Below, one piece after another: positions 19,311 to 45,987 of a stretch of 48,269 nt of DNA. The DNA is from a virus. Position 1 is the first letter of the stretch. Every line of letters starts with the position of its first letter. Where the stretch lies: positions 1-48,269 of IMG/VR virus record IMGVR_UViG_3300032240_002466; one strand, written 5' to 3'. Below the pieces are notes generated by a model. The model worked only from the letters and a program-made list of their open reading frames with translations, ran no database searches and was not told the DNA's origin. The position numbers and the translations under genes were made by a program.

Positions 19311-19928
19311 TCAACTAAATTTAACGGGAGCCTTTTTGTTATATTCCGCCCCACTTCCTTGGTATTGTTTTTTCTTCCATTCCTCTCTATCACCTGCTCC
19401 AAATAATCCTCCAACCCATCCTAACGCTTGACAAACAGCATCTCTAACAACTCCTTTCATACTTTGAGCAAATTCTGTGGTTGCCAATGTATCAACAATT
19501 GTTTTTCTAAGCGCAACCGTTAAGATATCCTCATCAACAAATTGTTTTGCAACATATTTTGCAATAATTTCAGGCAATTGAGCAACAATCAAATCACTAA
19601 ATTTACCACAGTCAGTTAAGATACCAGGTAACTCGGTCCATTTAGAATTTGCTAATACCACTTCAACAGTATCACGTAGAAACCCTTCTTCCATACCCAT
19701 ACCGTCAAGTACTGAAGATATTACTCTTTCCCAAATACTATTTACCCCTGTACCTTTAAACCAACCTGTAACTTTACCAGTTAAATCATCAAGAATACCT
19801 TCATTTAAAGATTTATTTTTTTCAATTGACTCTAAAAGTTGTGGTAACACAATTTTCATTCTATACTTTGGTGGGGATTGTATAAACTTCTCACAAAGTA
19901 TTTTAAATTCTTTTTCCTGTTTTGTCAT
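19311..19928 (-). CDS. Unknown protein with putative L-N-E cleavage site
   Basis: 205 aa. The helical N-terminus ends at SLNEGILDDLTG: L-N-E at 41-43 followed by G-I, the same L-N-E-G-I junction as in the proteins at 25155 and 39970. The rest is amphipathic helix with several hydrophobic stretches (for example FSDLIVAQLPEIIAKYVAKQ) and a basic Lys-rich C-terminus. This could be a membrane-active or packaged internal protein. It overlaps the upstream gene by 26 nt. Confidence 0.75.
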   Translation of the reverse strand: MTKQEKEFKILCEKFIQSPPKYRMKIVLPQLLESIEKNKSLNEGILDDLTGKVTGWFKGTGVNSIWERVISSVLDGMGMEEGFLRDTVEVVLANSKWTELPGILTDCGKFSDLIVAQLPEIIAKYVAKQFVDEDILTVALRKTIVDTLATTEFAQSMKGVVRDAVCQALGWVGGLFGAGDREEWKKKQYQGSGAEYNKKAPVKFS

Positions 19929-21474
19929 TTTTTGTAATTATTTCTTTATTTTCAGTAAGAGTTTTATTCATATCGTAGTTCATCATCAATAACGCTCTGT
20001 TTAAAGCCTCAATTGATTCCATTCTTGGTAATTCTCTTCTTTGTTTTTTATTAATTTCTCTTTTGTTAAATCCATACATTTTAACCACTCTGTTTTCACC
20101 ACTACCTAAATCTTTCCAATTAAAATTATATTTGTTTAGACAAGCAAAACATTTTGTCTTATACGCAGGATTTGCAGAATGTTCTTTTCTTTCACATTTT
20201 TTCCACGAGTTATACCAATTAACCGCTTCACTAAATAGAATCATACAATCATCTTTTGATAAATTATCATCTTCTTGTTGTAAGATTGAAATAACACTAC
20301 CCGGTGTTGAACATCCCTCAATTATTATGTTTGATTTTCCAGAATCTAAAACAACTGGATGAGTCTCGTCTTGGGTAAAATCAGTTTTACAATATGATGA
20401 AACATAACTTTTTAAATATTTTTTATTTTCACCCAAATATGAATACCCGTCATCACCTGAACTAGCTTTAGTACCACAAAAACAAATCACATCTTGTAAG
20501 TTATCACAATGTGTTTCATTTTCCATTTGGTAATTAATTACGATTTTACATTCTCTTCTTAAGAACGATGGGTCATCCGCTCTCATATTTTCTTTAATTG
20601 AATTATAAGCTCTGATAACTGACTTATCATTAATCTCACATAATGATTCAACAACATCTTCAGTATCAGGGTTACTAATCACTGAAGTTCTATTAGGAGT
20701 AGTAGTATTAGTAATGGTTGAGGATGTGTTACCACTATTTGTTGAGGTAACTGGTAATATTGTAATGTTCTGTTTACTACAAATTCCCATCGCAGAAATT
20801 GTTTGTGGTCCAAGGATACCGTCAGGTTTTAGACCAAACGTTGATTGGTATTTCATAACCATTGATTTAGTCATCGGTCCGTAAATTCCATCAGCAGTTT
20901 CTGTTTTAGAAACACTTTTTAATCCTTTAGATATTAAAAAATTCTGAACGGGAATTACTGAATCACCTTTCATACAGTTTTTCAAGTATGCCTTACCTGA
21001 ACATATACTTTCTAAAGATGGTGCAGGTTTACATCCACCCTTTTTAACAATAACTTCTTGTTCCTTTTCAGGATTTACAACAGGTGTTATTGTTGTTTCT
21101 GAATTTTGTTTTCCACTTGCAAAATCAAAATCAAATGTACTTTGGTCATTAGGATTTACTACGTTAACCCCTAATCCTGATAAATGACTAAAAATTTGTT
21201 TAACGTAACCCCAATCTTCACCGTCCTTAAAATTAAATTCGTCATCAACAAATGACCTTAAATTATATTTGTCATTAACAGCACTTGCTGTTTCTAAATC
21301 AGGAATTTCTTTAATCGCTTCAAGAGCCATATCTTCATTAGTTCCAATTCCAAAACTCCAAGAATATTGACTTGTTGAATCTTTAAGTTTTTTAACAATT
21401 TGGTCAACCTTACTTTGGTCAACCGATTCTTTTAAAATTCTTTTAAGAATTTTTTTTATATCTCTATCATTCAT
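19903..21474 (-). CDS. Peptidoglycan-binding-domain protein with short leader
   Basis: 523 aa. It begins MNDRDIKKILKRILKESVDQS, a basic amphipathic leader with L-K-E at 14-16. A PG_binding_1-type three-helix domain lies at about 167-228, including DGIYGPMTKSMVMKYQ and DGILGPQTISAMG; it binds cell-wall peptidoglycan. A long middle region contains about a dozen cysteines (a disulfide or zinc module, about 270-440). The C-terminus (about 485-523) carries LLMMNYDMNKTLTENKE, a motif that appears at the N-terminus of the 569-aa protein at 26441. Likely a virion-associated wall-active protein. Confidence 0.8.
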   Translation of the reverse strand: MNDRDIKKILKRILKESVDQSKVDQIVKKLKDSTSQYSWSFGIGTNEDMALEAIKEIPDLETASAVNDKYNLRSFVDDEFNFKDGEDWGYVKQIFSHLSGLGVNVVNPNDQSTFDFDFASGKQNSETTITPVVNPEKEQEVIVKKGGCKPAPSLESICSGKAYLKNCMKGDSVIPVQNFLISKGLKSVSKTETADGIYGPMTKSMVMKYQSTFGLKPDGILGPQTISAMGICSKQNITILPVTSTNSGNTSSTITNTTTPNRTSVISNPDTEDVVESLCEINDKSVIRAYNSIKENMRADDPSFLRRECKIVINYQMENETHCDNLQDVICFCGTKASSGDDGYSYLGENKKYLKSYVSSYCKTDFTQDETHPVVLDSGKSNIIIEGCSTPGSVISILQQEDDNLSKDDCMILFSEAVNWYNSWKKCERKEHSANPAYKTKCFACLNKYNFNWKDLGSGENRVVKMYGFNKREINKKQRRELPRMESIEALNRALLMMNYDMNKTLTENKEIITKNDKTGKRI

Positions 21475-35363: not shown

Positions 35364-35750
35364 TTATCTTCTTCTTCTTACAATACGACTTTCCATCATT
35401 CGGTCTTTTGACATTTCCATATCATCAGATGGTTTCATTCCCATTATTCTTTCATCTGTATCCATATCTTCCATTCCTTCTTCACCTCTTTGGTGTTCAC
35501 TAATAAAAGACATAAGTTGATGAGCCTCTTTTTTCTTACCCTTTTTCATTAATTTCATTGCCATCTCTTTTAAGATATCATAACCTGCAAATCCTAACAT
35601 TCCGATTACAGTAAGGGCAATTGTTAAAATCGCATCACCTGTTTCCATAACTTCAGGATTGACAGGTTGCTCATTCATTTCAGTTTCATTAACAATATTC
35701 TTAATTAAAGATGTTAATTCCGATTCAGTTAAACGTATTACTTTTTTCAT
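35364..35750 (-). CDS. Small leader-bearing membrane-associated protein
   Basis: 128 aa from ATG 35750. Leader MKKVIRLTESELTSLIKNIV, with V-N-E at 20-22 and M-N-E at 25-27 followed by Q. A hydrophobic helix (AILTIALTVIGMLGFAGYDI, about 37-56) follows and then a basic and Met-rich tail ending in three Arg. Candidate capsid-packaged membrane-active peptide. Confidence 0.75.
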   Translation of the reverse strand: MKKVIRLTESELTSLIKNIVNETEMNEQPVNPEVMETGDAILTIALTVIGMLGFAGYDILKEMAMKLMKKGKKKEAHQLMSFISEHQRGEEGMEDMDTDERIMGMKPSDDMEMSKDRMMESRIVRRRR

Positions 35751-36739: not shown

Positions 36740-37861
36740 TTATTTTTTAAATAAATTTTTATAGTCTCTGAATATATCAAACTCTTTTGAGTCATTATTA
36801 GAACCACTTTTTGGACTTCCTGTCACCCAAGTAATCATTCCATTACCTGAACTACTTAATAACTGACTAGCAGGTGTTGCCAATCTTGTCCCGTGTACAC
36901 TATGGTAGATGATTGGAACTCCGTTTTTAATTGCTCCAACATATCCAAGGTGAGTATTAAATGTAAATGGACTGGTATCTTTGAATGTACCATCATTCCC
37001 AAGTCCTCTGTGGTCTAACGCTCTTTGACAAAATGCTTTACCTTTATTTGCCGAATTTTTCCAATACATACCAACAACATCACCAACTTTTAAATTATTT
37101 AAATCAATACTTGATGATGAAGGATAGAATGAAGATATTGTTTTAGATACTTTTGTACCATCGGTACAAGTTTTATCATTATCGTCCATATCTTGGTAAA
37201 AACACCCACAAGTTTGAGCATTAATTCCATTATTCTTTACGTCATTTCTAATTTTGTCCCAGTCAATTGTGCCATCCGTAAACATATTATATTTAACACC
37301 ATACTTTTTAACTATATTAAATGCCGCCCAAGCACTTCCCAAAAAACCAGTCTCTAAAAATTTTTTAACAAATTCCGCACAACCTTCAGAACCTCCATCA
37401 CCAATAGTTTTTTCACTACCTGTACTAATTTTAGGACATAAATCTTGAGGGATTGAAACACAAGATTCATTAATTAATGGGTCCTGTGATTTACCATCAC
37501 TTGGTTTTTGCTTATTTGGTTGAGACAATAAACCTTGACACGCAGTTATATTAACACCTTTAGGGAAATAAGATTCCACCCCAAGTTTTTTGGCAGTATT
37601 ACTACCAACCTTACCGTCCATTGTTAAATTATTACTGATTTGGAATTTAGCCACCGCACATGCGGTACTTTTACCATACTTACCGTCAATTGTTCCAGGA
37701 TTAAAACCTAACGATTGTAATTTTTTTTGAATCGCTTCAGTTTTAGGATTATAAACTGATTCTTCAGTAATTAAATTTAGGTATAAATTCTTTGTTGAAT
37801 TTTCGTGCATCATCAGAATTCGTAACTTCTCATCTTCTGATATTAAAAATTTGTTCTTCAT
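36740..37861 (-). CDS. Leader-bearing wall hydrolase candidate: PG-binding plus NlpC/P60-like domain
   Basis: 373 aa. Leader MKNKFLISEDEKLRILMMH with I-T-E at 31-33. PG_binding_1-type domain at about 40-95 (KLQSLGFNPGTIDGKYGKST, KFQISNNLTMDGKVG). The C-terminal domain (about 155-350) shows GCAEFVKKFL with Cys161, NTHLGYVG with His304 and YHSVHG with His320, the layout of an NlpC/P60 or CHAP-type cysteine peptidase that cuts peptidoglycan peptides. Several extra Cys lie between. The leader suggests it is carried in the virion rather than used for lysis. Confidence 0.75.
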   Translation of the reverse strand: MKNKFLISEDEKLRILMMHENSTKNLYLNLITEESVYNPKTEAIQKKLQSLGFNPGTIDGKYGKSTACAVAKFQISNNLTMDGKVGSNTAKKLGVESYFPKGVNITACQGLLSQPNKQKPSDGKSQDPLINESCVSIPQDLCPKISTGSEKTIGDGGSEGCAEFVKKFLETGFLGSAWAAFNIVKKYGVKYNMFTDGTIDWDKIRNDVKNNGINAQTCGCFYQDMDDNDKTCTDGTKVSKTISSFYPSSSSIDLNNLKVGDVVGMYWKNSANKGKAFCQRALDHRGLGNDGTFKDTSPFTFNTHLGYVGAIKNGVPIIYHSVHGTRLATPASQLLSSSGNGMITWVTGSPKSGSNNDSKEFDIFRDYKNLFKK

Positions 37862-41243: not shown

Positions 41244-41274
41244 AAACAAAAAAAGGGGTGATTAAAACCCCACA
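41244..41274 (-). terminator. Terminator of the MORN gene
   Basis: In gene sense GTGGGG, 7-nt loop, CACCCC plus seven T. Confidence 0.7.
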
Positions 41275-41299: not shown

Positions 41300-42121
41300 T
41301 TAAAATAATCTTGAAAATGTTTTTTCACCAACCACCCCATCGGTAGGTAGTCCATTTTTACCTTGGAATTTCATAACCATTTTCTTTGTTTGATTTCCAA
41401 AGATACCATCAACAGTAAGGTCAGATAGACCAAGACTTAATTCTTTGTTTTTACCATTTAATAAACACTGAACATATTTTACAAGAGGACCTTGATTTTT
41501 TAATCCTATAACTAATTTACCTGAACTAAGATTATTAGTATTATAAACCGTTTGTTTATCGGCTTCTAACTTTAAAGAATCACAATCGTTACTTGGGGTA
41601 TTTGGAGTACTTGGGGTACTTGGGGTATCTTTACGATTAGGGTCGAATAATCCATTATAATCAGGGATTGTTAATTTTCCGTTTGACCATATACCTTTTT
41701 GAACTGTCCCGTTTTTTTGAGTATAAGTACCATACCCATTCCGTTCATCATTTTTTTGATATCCTACGAATGTTCCACAACAGGGGTTAGTTTCAGTTCC
41801 ATAACCATTTCTCTCATTGTTTTTAAATTCCCCAACATATTTAAACCCCGAAGATACCCATACAAAAGTCCCCTTACCTTCATATTTTGAATTAACCCAT
41901 TCTCCGTCATAATATGTAACTAAAACACCGTTTGCAGTACTATCCATTCTTCCACGTCCGTTTTCACAATTACCTTTTACACATTCATAACAAATATCAC
42001 TATTTTTTTCATCACATTCTTTTTGACCTTGTTTTAATTCATTAATTAATGGTTTAACATCACCAATGGTTGATTCCATTAAATCAAAAAATCTTTTTCT
42101 ATAATTCTCAATATTGTCCAT
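41300..42121 (-). CDS. MORN-repeat and peptidoglycan-binding protein with leader
   Basis: 273 aa from ATG 42121. The leader (MDNIENYRKRFFDLMES to 17) ends with GDVKPLINE and I-N-E at 26-28. A Cys-containing spacer (CYECVKGNCENGRG) follows. Three MORN-type repeats (about 68-150: YDGEWVNSKYEGKGTF, YVGEFKNNERNGYGT, FVGYQKNDERNGYGTYT) come next. After a Ser/Thr/Pro linker there is a PG_binding_1 domain (about 205-273: GPLVKYVQCLL, DGIFGNQTKKMVMKFQ). MORN repeats form extended beta sheets and contact membranes or other proteins. Likely virion-associated wall-contact protein. Confidence 0.85.
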   Translation of the reverse strand: MDNIENYRKRFFDLMESTIGDVKPLINELKQGQKECDEKNSDICYECVKGNCENGRGRMDSTANGVLVTYYDGEWVNSKYEGKGTFVWVSSGFKYVGEFKNNERNGYGTETNPCCGTFVGYQKNDERNGYGTYTQKNGTVQKGIWSNGKLTIPDYNGLFDPNRKDTPSTPSTPNTPSNDCDSLKLEADKQTVYNTNNLSSGKLVIGLKNQGPLVKYVQCLLNGKNKELSLGLSDLTVDGIFGNQTKKMVMKFQGKNGLPTDGVVGEKTFSRLF

Positions 42122-42143: not shown

Positions 42144-42186
42144 AAAAAAGGGGGTAGGGGGGATTGGAACAACGGAAAAAAAATTT
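42144..42186 (-). repeat. G-rich intergenic repeat, copy 1
   Basis: On the plus strand: A6, G5, TA, G6, ATTGGAACAACGG, A8, T-tract. It starts directly after the stop codon of the 42187 gene in the direction of transcription. Confidence 0.9.
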
Positions 42187-42468
42187 TTATAAATTATCGG
42201 AATACATAATCTTAACTCTGATGATGTTCTCAATACCGAGAAATTTAATTGTATCAGTAACCAATTCTTTTATCTCATTCCATCGTTCCCAATATTCCAT
42301 AAGGAATGTTTTAAAATCAATAATCAGGGTAACGTCATAAATTACACCACTTTCCCCATATGTGTAATCACGAAACGGATTCTTCTCTGAGCTCACATTA
42401 ATATCTCCAAACAATGGAAATTTCTTTTCCACAATATAACTAACGATTTTCTCAATGGGTTTTTGCAT
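42187..42468 (-). CDS. Unknown 93-aa protein
   Basis: Starts MQKPIEKIVSYIVEKKFPLF from ATG 42468; a longer open frame to 42576 would run through the repeat and promoter. Alpha/beta layout (IYDVTLIIDFKTFLMEYWER, then KFLGIENIIRVKIMYSD) like the small genes around 29.8-30.4 kb. Function unknown. Confidence 0.65.
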   Translation of the reverse strand: MQKPIEKIVSYIVEKKFPLFGDINVSSEKNPFRDYTYGESGVIYDVTLIIDFKTFLMEYWERWNEIKELVTDTIKFLGIENIIRVKIMYSDNL

Positions 42469-42476
42469 ATGAGATA

Positions 42477-42484
42477 CAAAGATA
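42477..42484 (-). promoter_or_regulatory. Host-type -7 box
   Basis: TATCTTTG in gene sense, 8 nt before start 42468; the -33 region falls in repeat copy 2 and has no TTG at the right distance. Confidence 0.45.
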
Positions 42485-42485
42485 C

Positions 42486-42530
42486 AAAAAAAAGGGGGTA
42501 GGGGGGATTGGAACAACGAAAAAAAAAATT
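42486..42530 (-). repeat. G-rich intergenic repeat, copy 2
   Basis: A8, G5, TA, G6, ATTGGAACAACG, A-tract, TTT. Like copy 1 it abuts a gene whose last sense codons are TTA TAA. It has one G fewer after AACAAC. Confidence 0.9.
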
Positions 42531-43150
42531 TATAAACTATTTTTAATTGAGTTATAAAAATAATTGCTAATATCATCAGGTGAAGTTATATTACGTCCAC
42601 TTAATTGTATCCTTAAACTTTTTATTAAATTAACAATTTGTGATTCAGGGACATTTTTATAAAATTCAGGTGATATAAATTTCCCATCAATCAATCCCAT
42701 TTTTTGTAGTTGTCTAATTTTTCTTGATGCAAAATTATCGGCAATTAGCTCTATCTCTTTCATAAACTTGGCACCATCATCAAGGGAGATTTCATCGTTA
42801 TAAAGCTCATACATTTTTTCCTCACCATATTTCTTATACTGATACTGATGAGCAACTTCGTGAAATATAACAAACAAAGCAAACTCTAATGGACGGCTAA
42901 GAACAATATTATTAATTAAGACCCCGTTATGTAAAGCAACACCCAACGCATTATATTTAAAATTAGCAAATTCTATTTTTTGACAATCTGATTTCTCTAT
43001 GAAGTCAACAACAAAATCAACCAATTCATCTGACATATCATATCTTGATTTTAAAGTATCAACAAAATCAACAAGATTGGTTGTCTCCTCGTTAATAACT
43101 CGTCTAACCAATTTAATCAAATCTGATTCTGTCAATATTATAGTTCTCAT
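42530..43150 (-). CDS. Leader-bearing HExxH zinc metallopeptidase
   Basis: 206 aa. Leader MRTIILTESDLIKLVRRVIN with I-N-E at 19-21. The zinc site is HEVAH at 97-101, with ELIADNFASRK (E134, D138) 33 residues later as third ligand region, the layout of gluzincin-type peptidases related to ImmA/IrrE and SprT-like enzymes. There is no signal peptide or membrane segment. If the leader targets it to the prohead, the protease would be injected into the host with the DNA. Confidence 0.82.
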   Translation of the reverse strand: MRTIILTESDLIKLVRRVINEETTNLVDFVDTLKSRYDMSDELVDFVVDFIEKSDCQKIEFANFKYNALGVALHNGVLINNIVLSRPLEFALFVIFHEVAHQYQYKKYGEEKMYELYNDEISLDDGAKFMKEIELIADNFASRKIRQLQKMGLIDGKFISPEFYKNVPESQIVNLIKSLRIQLSGRNITSPDDISNYFYNSIKNSL

Positions 43151-43156
43151 ATTACA

Positions 43157-43164
43157 ATAAATAC
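43157..43164 (-). promoter_or_regulatory. Putative late promoter box
   Basis: GTATTTAT in gene sense, 6 nt before start 43150. Confidence 0.45.
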
Positions 43165-43168
43165 CAGA

Positions 43169-43477
43169 TTACCAAATATAATCAAACTCACACCCATATG
43201 TCTTTTTAATGTAACGACCTATTGCGTCAGTAAATTCTTTTGAGTCAATACTAAAGAACTCCCACATAGTACCAAAATATTTTCCGTCAGTATAATAAGT
43301 GGAAGTATCAGATTCTGGATGACCAACCAACATCTCACCATCCCGATTAAATAATCCGTGCCACGTTTCACCATATCCACTAACATATTCATCACTCCAC
43401 TTGGCATCTTTAAACACCTTATCAAAATAACGTTTCATAACTTTGTCCAACTGTTCAGGCGTGATAATATATTTCAT
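43169..43477 (-). CDS. Unknown protein with MKYIIT start
   Basis: 102 aa. MKYIITPEQLDKVMKRYFDK is a shorter variant of the leader pattern without an [ILV]-x-E site. The rest has many aromatic residues (YGETWHGLFNRDGEMLVG, YFGTMWEFFS). Function unknown. Confidence 0.7.
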   Translation of the reverse strand: MKYIITPEQLDKVMKRYFDKVFKDAKWSDEYVSGYGETWHGLFNRDGEMLVGHPESDTSTYYTDGKYFGTMWEFFSIDSKEFTDAIGRYIKKTYGCEFDYIW

Positions 43478-43483
43478 ATTACA

Positions 43484-43491
43484 ATAAATAC
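43484..43491 (-). promoter_or_regulatory. Putative late promoter box
   Basis: GTATTTAT in gene sense, 6 nt before start 43477. Confidence 0.45.
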
Positions 43492-43502
43492 ATCAAAACA
43501 AA

Positions 43503-43527
43503 AAACCCCTCTTTATGGGAGGGGTTT
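43503..43527. terminator. Terminator of the 43550 gene
   Basis: AAACCCCTC, 7-nt loop, GAGGGGTTT. Confidence 0.8.
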
Positions 43528-43549
43528 ATAAAAAAATATTATATAATTA

Positions 43550-43867
43550 TTAATGTCCTTTTATTCTTTGCATAAGTGGGTCAACAACTCTTGAGTAGTC
43601 AGCTCCCAAATATTCTCTTAAAGCGGTTATCAAATCTTTACCGTTAGGTTTCCCATAAGTTCTTTGGATTTCTTTCCATCCTTCCTCGGTTTGAATCTGA
43701 TTTAAAATTGAGGCAACTTTGTCTTTACCTCCCTCTGTTTTGAACCCACCTAATCGGCCATCCAACTGCTTAGCCATTGTCCAATAATCCAATTCTTTTT
43801 GTTCACTTATAACTCTTTTAACAATCTTAACCAAATCGGTTTCTGTTAATCTAACAACTTTTTTCAT
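43550..43867 (-). CDS. Small leader-bearing protein
   Basis: 105 aa. Leader MKKVVRLTETDLVKIVKRVI with I-S-E at 20-22 followed by Q. The C-terminal helical domain (ASILNQIQTEEGWKEIQRTY, then LITALREYLGAD) resembles short helical repeats seen in other phage and gene-transfer-agent proteins. Function unknown. Confidence 0.75.
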   Translation of the reverse strand: MKKVVRLTETDLVKIVKRVISEQKELDYWTMAKQLDGRLGGFKTEGGKDKVASILNQIQTEEGWKEIQRTYGKPNGKDLITALREYLGADYSRVVDPLMQRIKGH

Positions 43868-43882
43868 ATTATTAATTTATAT

Positions 43883-43890
43883 ATAAATAT
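43883..43890 (-). promoter_or_regulatory. Putative late promoter box
   Basis: ATATTTAT in gene sense, 15 nt before start 43867. Confidence 0.4.
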
Positions 43891-43900
43891 ATCAAAAAAT

Positions 43901-43943
43901 AAAAAAGGGGGTAGGGGGATTGGAACAACGGAAAAAAAATTTT
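43901..43943 (-). repeat. G-rich intergenic repeat, copy 3
   Basis: A6, G5, TA, G5, ATTGGAACAACGG, A8, TTT. The second G-run is one base shorter than in copies 1 and 2. Confidence 0.9.
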
Positions 43944-43948
43944 AGAAA

Positions 43949-44491
43949 TTAATTTAATATATTAGTTTGATACTCCTCTTTATAAAGTTTTTCAAAATCA
44001 TCAATAATTTTGTTTTGAGCTTTTTCACTAATTCTTCCATTAATGGTCTTTTCCAATTTAGAATAGAATTCCTCTTCCCCATCAGGGTCGTTCATATAGT
44101 CCCACTTAATACGGTTTGTGGGATATGTGTTTCGTTTCCATATACCATTTTCTGTCTTATAATTAAAATTTACTTTATTAGGATTCCAAAAAATATTAAT
44201 CTCAACTTTGCCCGTAGATTTTTTTATATGATATGAAATAATCAAAGCCGGCTCATTCCTATTATATTTTGCAAGTTCAGAAGTTAATTTATTAGGATAA
44301 ATAAAAAATCCAGGATATTGCATCCAACCGTGGGTTCCAAATCTACCTTGAAACTTGGAGTTTAAAAAATTGGTTACGTCAGTTTCAATTGCACTTGAAA
44401 TGTCCGTCTTTAAAAAACTGATAGTGTCTTCGTGTTTTTTAATTAGTTTCCTCAATGCGGAATATTGTGCTTCAGTAATAATATATTTCAT
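43949..44491 (-). CDS. Unknown protein with MKYIITE start
   Basis: 180 aa. Begins MKYIITEAQYSALRKLIKKH; no [ILV]-x-E site directly after. Strand-rich middle (ALIISYHIKKSTGKVEINIF) and basic C-terminus. Function unknown. Confidence 0.7.
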   Translation of the reverse strand: MKYIITEAQYSALRKLIKKHEDTISFLKTDISSAIETDVTNFLNSKFQGRFGTHGWMQYPGFFIYPNKLTSELAKYNRNEPALIISYHIKKSTGKVEINIFWNPNKVNFNYKTENGIWKRNTYPTNRIKWDYMNDPDGEEEFYSKLEKTINGRISEKAQNKIIDDFEKLYKEEYQTNILN

Positions 44492-44497
44492 ATAAGA

Positions 44498-44505
44498 ATA
44501 AATAC
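44498..44505 (-). promoter_or_regulatory. Putative late promoter box
   Basis: GTATTTAT in gene sense, 6 nt before start 44491. Confidence 0.45.
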
Positions 44506-44514
44506 CTTAAAAAT

Positions 44515-44556
44515 AAAAAAGGGGGTTGGGGGGATTGGAACAACGGAAAAAAAATT
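44515..44556 (-). repeat. G-rich intergenic repeat, copy 4
   Basis: A6, G5, TT, G6, ATTGGAACAACGG, A8, TT. It has TT between the G-runs, as in copy 5 but unlike copies 1-3. It borders the 3' end of the HNH gene. Confidence 0.9.
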
Positions 44557-45448
44557 ATTTACGATTAAATTCAGGAAATGGTGATTCCCATAAACAAGAA
44601 ATGACAGGGACTGTATCGTTTTTAGATAAATTATCAAATGCCCACATAGGATTTAAATTCTGATAATTAAATAATTTTAATAACGTATCAGTATCACCGT
44701 TACTTAATGAACAAGGTAATATGTGGTCAATATGCCATTTCCCGTGATTATCCCAAGACATACCAAATAAAAATTGTTTCTCAATATGTTTTATAAATCC
44801 ATCAAAATCAATCCCTAAAATATCTTCGGTGCTCGGTTTAACATCAATATTATTTTTTTGTTTCTTAATGTATACCAATATTGATTTTCTTAAATGGGCT
44901 TTCATATACCTAAAAGTATCACTTTGTTGTTGGATGTATTCCTTCTTATAATCTCTAACCCTTTCAGAAGATTTCTCTTTATACCAATCCAAATTTTTAA
45001 CCCGATTATAATACTCCTTCTTCCTTAATTTATTTTTATCAAAATGTTTTTCCCTATATTTTTTATCAGACTCGCATTTACAATCACGGCAAATAGACAT
45101 CATACCATCTTTTTCCGATTTGTTTTTTCCAAAGTTTTCAAAAGGTAAATCTTGTTTACAAGCATAACATCTTTTAAATTTTGATTTACAACTATTACAC
45201 TTTGAATCAATTTTACAAGAACTCTTAACTACATTAAATTCATCAATTGATTTAACTTGATTACATTTTTCACAGTGAGACTCCGTTGGGAGTGTTTTTA
45301 AAAACTTAACTTCATTTCTTTTAGAAATAACTCTATCAGAGTTAGTACACTTTTTACATTTACTACTAATATATTTTCCACCTTTAATGTAGTATTTAGA
45401 TAAGTCTTTAAATTCATTACAAGATTTACATTGTCTTAAATTTTCCAT
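44555..45448 (-). CDS. HNH homing-type endonuclease with zinc-finger array
   Basis: 297 aa. The N-terminal half holds four or five CxxC pairs (CKSCNEF, CKKCTN, CEKCNQ, CNSCK, CYACKQ, CRDCK), so several zinc ribbons for DNA recognition. The C-terminal HNH core is HIDHILPCSLSNGDTD followed by FNYQNLNPMWAFDNLSKND, the pattern of free-standing phage homing nucleases. Such genes spread by cutting alleles that lack them. Repeat copies 4 and 5 flank it exactly. It has a host-type promoter. Confidence 0.88.
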   Translation of the reverse strand: MENLRQCKSCNEFKDLSKYYIKGGKYISSKCKKCTNSDRVISKRNEVKFLKTLPTESHCEKCNQVKSIDEFNVVKSSCKIDSKCNSCKSKFKRCYACKQDLPFENFGKNKSEKDGMMSICRDCKCESDKKYREKHFDKNKLRKKEYYNRVKNLDWYKEKSSERVRDYKKEYIQQQSDTFRYMKAHLRKSILVYIKKQKNNIDVKPSTEDILGIDFDGFIKHIEKQFLFGMSWDNHGKWHIDHILPCSLSNGDTDTLLKLFNYQNLNPMWAFDNLSKNDTVPVISCLWESPFPEFNRK

Positions 45449-45452
45449 AATA

Positions 45453-45460
45453 CAAAGATA
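45453..45460 (-). promoter_or_regulatory. Host-type -7 box of the HNH gene
   Basis: TATCTTTG in gene sense, 4 nt before start 45448; no TTG at -33, where repeat copy 5 lies. Confidence 0.5.
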
Positions 45461-45462
45461 AT

Positions 45463-45502
45463 AAAAAAGGGGGTTGGGGGGATTGGAACAACGGAAAAAA
45501 AT
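45463..45502 (-). repeat. G-rich intergenic repeat, copy 5
   Basis: A6, G5, TT, G6, ATTGGAACAACGG, A7, TT. Directly after the stop of the 45502 gene and upstream of the HNH gene. Confidence 0.9.
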
Positions 45503-45987
45503 TATTTTTTCATAAACATACTGAAGAACTCACTCTCATAATCACGTTTCTCAATGCTGATTCTTTTAACTTGAAACTTAATGAAATCATTGTCGGTATG
45601 CATCATAGAAAAAGCTGTGTTAATATCCTCACCCAACTTCTCAGGGGTGGAGACGTTCTTGGTATCCCAATGAAACTTAACATTCAATTTAACAAGATAA
45701 CTTGGAACAGGTTCAAAATCTATAGAACTATATTTAAAATTGTTTCTGTAACTATCAATCTCAATTGAAGAGATACCTGGTAAGTTCTTCTTAATAATCT
45801 TAAACAATAATTCAGGAAAAAACATTTCCCCCTTTCCGTTGGGGATATCCTGTCCATCACTATACGGATTATGACTTATTCCTCCTCCACTTACGTGATA
45901 ATCACCATATTCTCTTACAGTAGTTAATCCTCCATATGTTGAATTATCTATAATTGATTGACCAATGTTGTCTTCTTCAGGTTCCAT
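45502..45987 (-). CDS. Unknown 161-aa protein
   Basis: A Gly/Asn-rich N-terminal part (about 1-45) and an alpha/beta C-terminal domain (PELLFKIIKKNLPGISSIEI, YLVKLNVKFHWDTKN) similar in layout to the small protein at 42187. No recognised motif. Confidence 0.65.
   Translation of the reverse strand: MEPEEDNIGQSIIDNSTYGGLTTVREYGDYHVSGGGISHNPYSDGQDIPNGKGEMFFPELLFKIIKKNLPGISSIEIDSYRNNFKYSSIDFEPVPSYLVKLNVKFHWDTKNVSTPEKLGEDINTAFSMMHTDNDFIKFQVKRISIEKRDYESEFFSMFMKK

Follow-up and report, generated by a model that had tools for sequence, protein, structure and literature searches.

In the viral record IMGVR_UViG_3300032240_002466 of IMG/VR, analysed over positions 1 to 48,269 (this whole stretch of 48,269 nucleotides is referred to as the window), a 40-base C/G-rich repeat, termed E, separates small genes of a variable array. 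We consider it probable that E is a composite module, serving both transcription and recombination, at the boundaries of single-gene cassettes within one hypervariable locus of jumbo phages of the T4 type. Comparison of related phages shows the position of E, its restriction to one locus, the switching of gene partners at E, and the gain and loss of cassettes that leaves a single copy behind; by the same comparison, E is the point at which relatives gain, lose and swap whole genes. The boundary described here, a short recognizable sequence with examples of gain and loss at base level, makes it directly testable how single genes are exchanged in the hypervariable regions of large phages without damage to operons. 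E can also be used as a marker for fast-evolving phage accessory genes in metagenomes, and it poses the puzzle of a hairpin-free element that substitutes for terminators.

Element E in the window and its anatomy

The sense strand of E is the minus strand of the window, the same as that of the genes. Read on the plus strand, the five copies follow the consensus A6-8 G5 T[AT] G5-6 ATTGGAACAACG(G) A7-10 TT, and both this pattern and the places of the copies are as described in the initial annotation of the sequence; the core GGGGGATTGGAACAACG has five matches on one strand of the window and none for a control read backwards. In the sense direction a stop codon is followed in turn by an A/T tail containing T7-10, CCGTTGTTCCAAT, C5-6, TA or AA, C5, T6-8, promoter and ATG. 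The copies start within a few nucleotides of a minus-strand stop codon and end shortly ahead of the next promoter and start codon:

42144..42186, minus strand: E copy 1 (sense T8 CCGTTGTTCCAAT C6 TA C5 T6), between genes 42187-42468 and 41300-42121
42488..42530, minus strand: E copy 2, between genes 42530-43150 and 42187-42468; next promoter of the host type, TATCTTTG
43902..43944, minus strand: E copy 3, between genes 43949-44491 and 43550-43867
44516..44558, minus strand: E copy 4, between genes 44555-45448 and 43949-44491
45464..45505, minus strand: E copy 5, between genes 45502-45987 and 44555-45448; next promoter of the host type, TATCTTTG

The location directly after a stop codon, noted initially, is true of all five copies, but not all array junctions have E, and at 43,490-43,530 an ordinary hairpin terminator is present instead:

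43503..43527, minus strand: hairpin terminator with the stem AAACCCCTC/GAGGGGTTT, at the position taken by E elsewhere in the array

A second hairpin terminator in an E-type slot of the window lies at 41255-41271.

For comparison we used 27 non-redundant regions with 85 E copies (labels with L denote phage regions, those with F and c gene families); the regions were picked for containing E, and gene calling relied on a simple script that overlooked 42187-42468. Across phages the constant part of E is AAT(T)-C4-6-2 nt-C4-6-T4-9, with a 2-nt spacer that among 75 copies is TA in 46, AA in 23 and AG in 4, while the segment ahead of it differs by lineage (CCGTTGTTC, CGTCGTT, CCCTTCGGGTTGT, CTCCCTTCGGTCGTAAT or CTCGTTATACTCGATAT). 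This variable part can be missing, because in family F63 the stop codon can fall within the E core (GTGGTTTAATCCCCCTACCCCC). The A7-10 TT that was initially taken as the end of E is present, but it belongs in part to the tail of the upstream gene, since in L167 the gene of family F16 retains this T-tract after its stop codon although E is absent.

The sense RNA of the window copies (51-nt stretches) is unfolded, with 0 to -0.6 kcal/mol, which bears out the earlier remark that the repeat has no dyad, and it is almost devoid of G (2 in about 43 nt). The plus-strand DNA of E has no significant fold either, hence no attC-type inverted core pairs, and a comparison of 40-47 kb with Rfam yielded only sub-threshold, chance-like matches, none of them on E. 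A hairpin principle shared by the RNA or DNA of all copies is ruled out by the unfolded window copies, the mini-hairpins CCCTTCGGG and CTCCCTTCGGTCG being limited to some variants. A tRNA-like T-arm (TTC-AAT-CCCC) is a lead only, as the 5' arm is absent and many variants break the T-arm. Concerted evolution within genomes is not needed to account for the copies, which resemble each other to about the same degree when they share a genome (mean distance 5.0) and when they follow one gene across genomes (4.7). Some arrays also have other G-rich intergenic stretches nearby that are unrelated to E, such as GGGGGGGATACCCC... near 5446 of L017 (reverse strand) and GGGGGGAGGGGGTACCCC near 5698 of L019.

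Occurrence of E and the phages that carry it

E is absent from the 50,697 named phages searched, and blastn with E gave nothing beyond 21-nt matches. The 16-mer GGGGGATTGGAACAAC was found in 17 viral-contig stretches, 14 of them in phage contigs with the full A-tract/G-tract context; its 76 matches in GTDB lack this context and are consistent with chance. With a looser pattern 49 stretches were obtained, and 44 environmental phage records, including records of 200-326 kb, were then searched whole. In 44/44 records all pattern-found copies lie on one strand in a single small cluster, with none for the reversed control; in the fetched regions the cluster spans 0.4-7.0 kb. In the 27 regions it mostly has the same divergently read genes, of families c3 and c17, at a distance of a few kb, and it lies ahead of family c2.

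The window phage is of the T4 type, with a T4-like portal protein (PF07230, E-value 6e-78) and a T4-type terminase (PF03237), to which the nearest named terminases, those of the uncultured phage LR756508 and of Flavobacterium phage immuto, are 27-28% identical. The terminase match to phage immuto, together with the TAnnTTTG promoters, suggests that the host of the E-carrying phages is probably a member of Bacteroidota.

Gene exchange at E

We regarded as orthologs proteins with at least 60% identity, and as retained adjacency the cases in which orthologous neighbours are still adjacent in a relative. Adjacency was retained at 3/137 E junctions, compared to 16/70 non-E junctions of the same arrays and 38/175 non-E junctions within 1.5 kb. 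When genomes were bootstrapped, the difference between E and non-E junctions of the same arrays was 0.21 (95% 0.02-0.36), being zero or less in 6/300 replicates, and for the non-E junctions within 1.5 kb it was zero or less in 0/300.

The change of partners can be followed along the sequence of E itself. Among 46 pairs with the same upstream gene and different downstream genes, the sequence to the left of the core is 78-92% identical and that to its right falls to background, and 36 pairs with the same downstream gene and different upstream genes exhibit the mirror-image profile around the core. The variable part on the left goes with the identity of the upstream gene (p 0.003) and the right flank with that of the downstream gene (p 0.008); the C-tract core goes with neither, and the pairs are not independent of each other. 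Two cases of gain or loss can be traced at the level of single bases. L194 has the order F128-E1-F114-E2-F78 and L202 the order F128-E-F78, the protein of F114 comprising 482 aa, and the flanking proteins being 98.7% and 95.4% identical; the single E of L202 is chimeric, with the left part of E1 through CTCGTTATACTCG and the right part of E2 from TAATCAATCCCC. This event is recent. In the second case, L166 has F13-E-F63-E-F33 where L175 has F13-E-F33, and the switch lies within a shared tract of ~30 nt; looser cases are those of L165/L199 and L167/L169. In each of four phages the gene of family F38 lies between two E copies, and its neighbours differ among these phages. Of the candidates initially proposed for the repeat, the site of recombination between single-gene cassettes has good support as a comparative finding, from adjacency, identity profiles and base-level gain and loss; E may be recognized by an enzyme at this site or may just supply homology. 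Copies at random positions and a lack of exchange among relatives had been named as the outcomes that would speak against the initial observation; the one-strand single cluster in 44 records and the exchange at E speak in its favour.

Several observations weigh against E as a module of exchange and transcription. The regions were selected for E and the phage pairs are related, which makes the statistics not independent. The same gene sometimes lacks E at its junction (F16 in L167; F7 in L175 and L186), and E is therefore not required at the junctions of these genes. Part of the low adjacency may be explained if E is a mark of the genes acquired last and not the cause of their exchange. The occurrence of E is patchy among relatives by terminase or cassette genes, and of the large records in which E had not been found before, one of 261 kb matched and those of 154 kb and 224 kb had none. 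Finally, L184, L190, L194 and L202, of a related lineage, have a normal hairpin immediately ahead of E; termination can thus not be a general role of E.

E, terminators and promoters

Within the lineage of the window, lineage A, 5/54 E junctions and 48/115 other promoter junctions have a hairpin (p 1.3e-5), and two or more of these five hairpins are artefacts that arise from the sequence of E. The related lineage B shows no difference (9/21 E junctions, 15/27 others). In L290 (33367-41753 of IMGVR_UViG_3300010885_020780), an E-less relative with respect to F63, the intrinsic terminator TAATCCCCTCCCTTCAAGGTGGGGTTTTTT stands exactly where L287 has the E core TAATCCCCCTACCCCCTTTTTT. E can occupy the place of a terminator, yet it cannot be claimed to be one. 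The terminator proposed initially is a compatible candidate, as E takes the place of hairpins in the window's lineage; in a related lineage, E directly follows a normal hairpin.

Among 75 copies E is followed by the promoter-like box TATTTAT in 59 and TAnnTTTG in 12. The TATTTAT box is directional, being found ahead of 494/1174 genes, compared to 102 with ATAAATA, and peaks at -15 and -25. It is likely to be a late promoter of the phage that leaves a very short leader or none, late expression being suggested by the box ahead of the portal gene. It lies 11-15 or 21-25 nt ahead of start codons, e.g. upstream of the window genes at 2104, 17111, 37861, 42121 and 43477. We rejected a T4-late-type promoter (TATAAATA) on the plus strand facing into E, because the box is strongly directional, on the sense strand and upstream of starts.

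Proposed mechanism and alternative explanations

With E at all cassette boundaries, two copies could recombine, either within one genome or between co-infecting phages, whereby the intervening gene or genes would be removed, added or swapped and one intact, sometimes chimeric, E would remain. Any two boundaries resemble each other over ~60 bp, made up of E and the promoter block; this is probably enough for general phage recombination, and we suppose that the exchange proceeds via the phage's own homologous recombination. It would perhaps be started by HNH or endonuclease VII-like homing enzymes encoded by some cassettes: T4 homing endonucleases start recombination (PMC2988022), and by analogy the array endonucleases could initiate exchange. 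The C-tract/T-tract end of E may shield the next promoter from read-through, which would be the job of the hairpins replaced in the window's lineage.

It is unlikely that E is primarily a hairpin-free terminator (sequence-specific, Rho-loaded or acting as a roadblock) selected for insulation, with exchange as a by-product of repeated intergenic sequence. Such a role would fit the invariable location between stop codon and promoter in a single orientation, the unfolded and nearly G-free sense RNA, the T5-8 end shared with local hairpin terminators, and the exclusion of hairpins by E in lineage A, with a hairpin in the slot of the E-less relative. However, E is confined to one locus while hairpins are used in the remaining genome, the two occur together in lineage B, some expressed-looking junctions have neither, and the constraint on E (AAT, two C-tracts, 2-nt spacer) exceeds the needs of a rut site. 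That E is an upstream control box, an activator site or operator of the next promoter marking co-regulated genes, we find highly improbable. The spacing from C-tract to TATTTAT is tight, mostly 14-20 nt, but the host-type TAnnTTTG promoters have one of 4-9 nt, and TATTTAT lies about equally far from hairpin terminators, so that spacing is a property of the T-tract/promoter block; moreover, the left part of E tracks the upstream gene rather than the promoter, and the next start lies 60-160 nt from some copies.

The recombination itself could be of a different kind, with a dedicated recombinase or endonuclease that recognizes E and moves cassettes site-specifically instead of by general recombination. 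The core more conserved than its surroundings, the switch of E type between L202 and L194 within a few bases of E and the endonuclease genes of the arrays agree with this idea, which we nonetheless deem very unlikely: E has no inverted repeats, the similarity of ~60 bp is probably enough for general recombination, and among the 70 array proteins screened no integrase- or transposase-like gene was recognized, apart from a weak DNA-invertase match of one L192 protein. It is quite unlikely, too, that the template-strand tracts (G4-6, 2 nt, G4-6) of two E copies pair, bimolecularly or via a phage protein, halting RNA polymerase and joining cassettes in a dedicated system of transcription-coupled exchange, although bimolecular pairing of the G4T2G4 type may be a candidate. 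The template-strand G-structure of the initial annotation gained no positive evidence, E having two tracts of 4-6 G, 2 nt apart, where an ordinary quadruplex within one molecule needs four tracts of at least three G.

Genes of the array

The array genes are small and mostly of unknown function, with several that resemble HNH or endonuclease VII proteins. The cassette genes of the window are as follows:

41300..42121, minus strand: gene after E copy 1, with MORN repeats (PF02493) and a peptidoglycan-binding domain (PF01471)
42187..42468, minus strand: gene for 93 aa, E on both sides; by eye it resembles family F46 of L171 and L187, where E follows too
43949..44491, minus strand: gene of family F38, E on both sides
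44555..45448, minus strand: endonuclease VII / HNH-like zinc protein (PHROG 1035, E-value 3.9e-22; HIDHILPCS motif), E on both sides

Similar N-terminal tags recur on unrelated small proteins, in the window at 35364-35750, 41300-42121, 42530-43150 and 43550-43867 and in many array genes of L165-L204. They include M-KKVVRLTESDLVKIVKRVINE, MKYIITESQ and MxNIEQYRKRFFNLMESTIGDVKPLINE, frequently end in [ILV]xE, and are carried by roughly half of the proteins in the arrays and by 28% of those flanking them. They look like candidate capsid-targeting or prohead-protease sequences, by analogy to the internal proteins of T4. Peptidoglycan-binding or endolysin-like domains are encoded at 19903-21474, 36740-37861 and 41300-42121 of the window, the latter two on tagged proteins.

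Comparison with known systems

In T-even phages the internal proteins IPI, IPII and IPIII are encoded by variable genes and have capsid-targeting N-termini (PMC9026906). The array genes resemble them in being small, poorly conserved and provided with a shared N-terminal tag, but here the tags are found also outside the array and the capsid role is only a candidate.

E shares with the intrinsic terminators of these phages its position between stop codon and promoter, the T-tract and the promoter spacing, whereas the window copies have C-tracts in place of the GC stem and form no hairpin. With integron cassettes and their attC sites the arrays share the one-gene, one-orientation cassettes and a recombination-associated site behind each gene. 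However, E lacks attC-type inverted repeats, the cassettes bring their own promoters, and the 70 array proteins include no recognized integrase.

The PeSLs, reportedly described by Arbiol et al. (2010) and Comeau et al. (2014), are promoter-early stem-loop cassettes of T4-type phages. They are cited as mediators of gene shuffling (PMC4503421). E resembles a PeSL in being short, repeated and intergenic, in lying among small, mostly orphan genes of a hyperplastic region in a T4-type phage, and in being a composite of transcription boundary and promoter with gene shuffling among relatives. On the other hand, the window copies have no stem-loop, and in lineage B the hairpin lies beside E and not within it; E has its own conserved two-tract C/G core and one locus per genome, and it is followed by TATTTAT, a probably late box, or by host-type promoters. 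Because of the missing stem-loop and the unproven early promoter we do not class E as a PeSL, and we regard it as a boundary module that has features in common with PeSLs.

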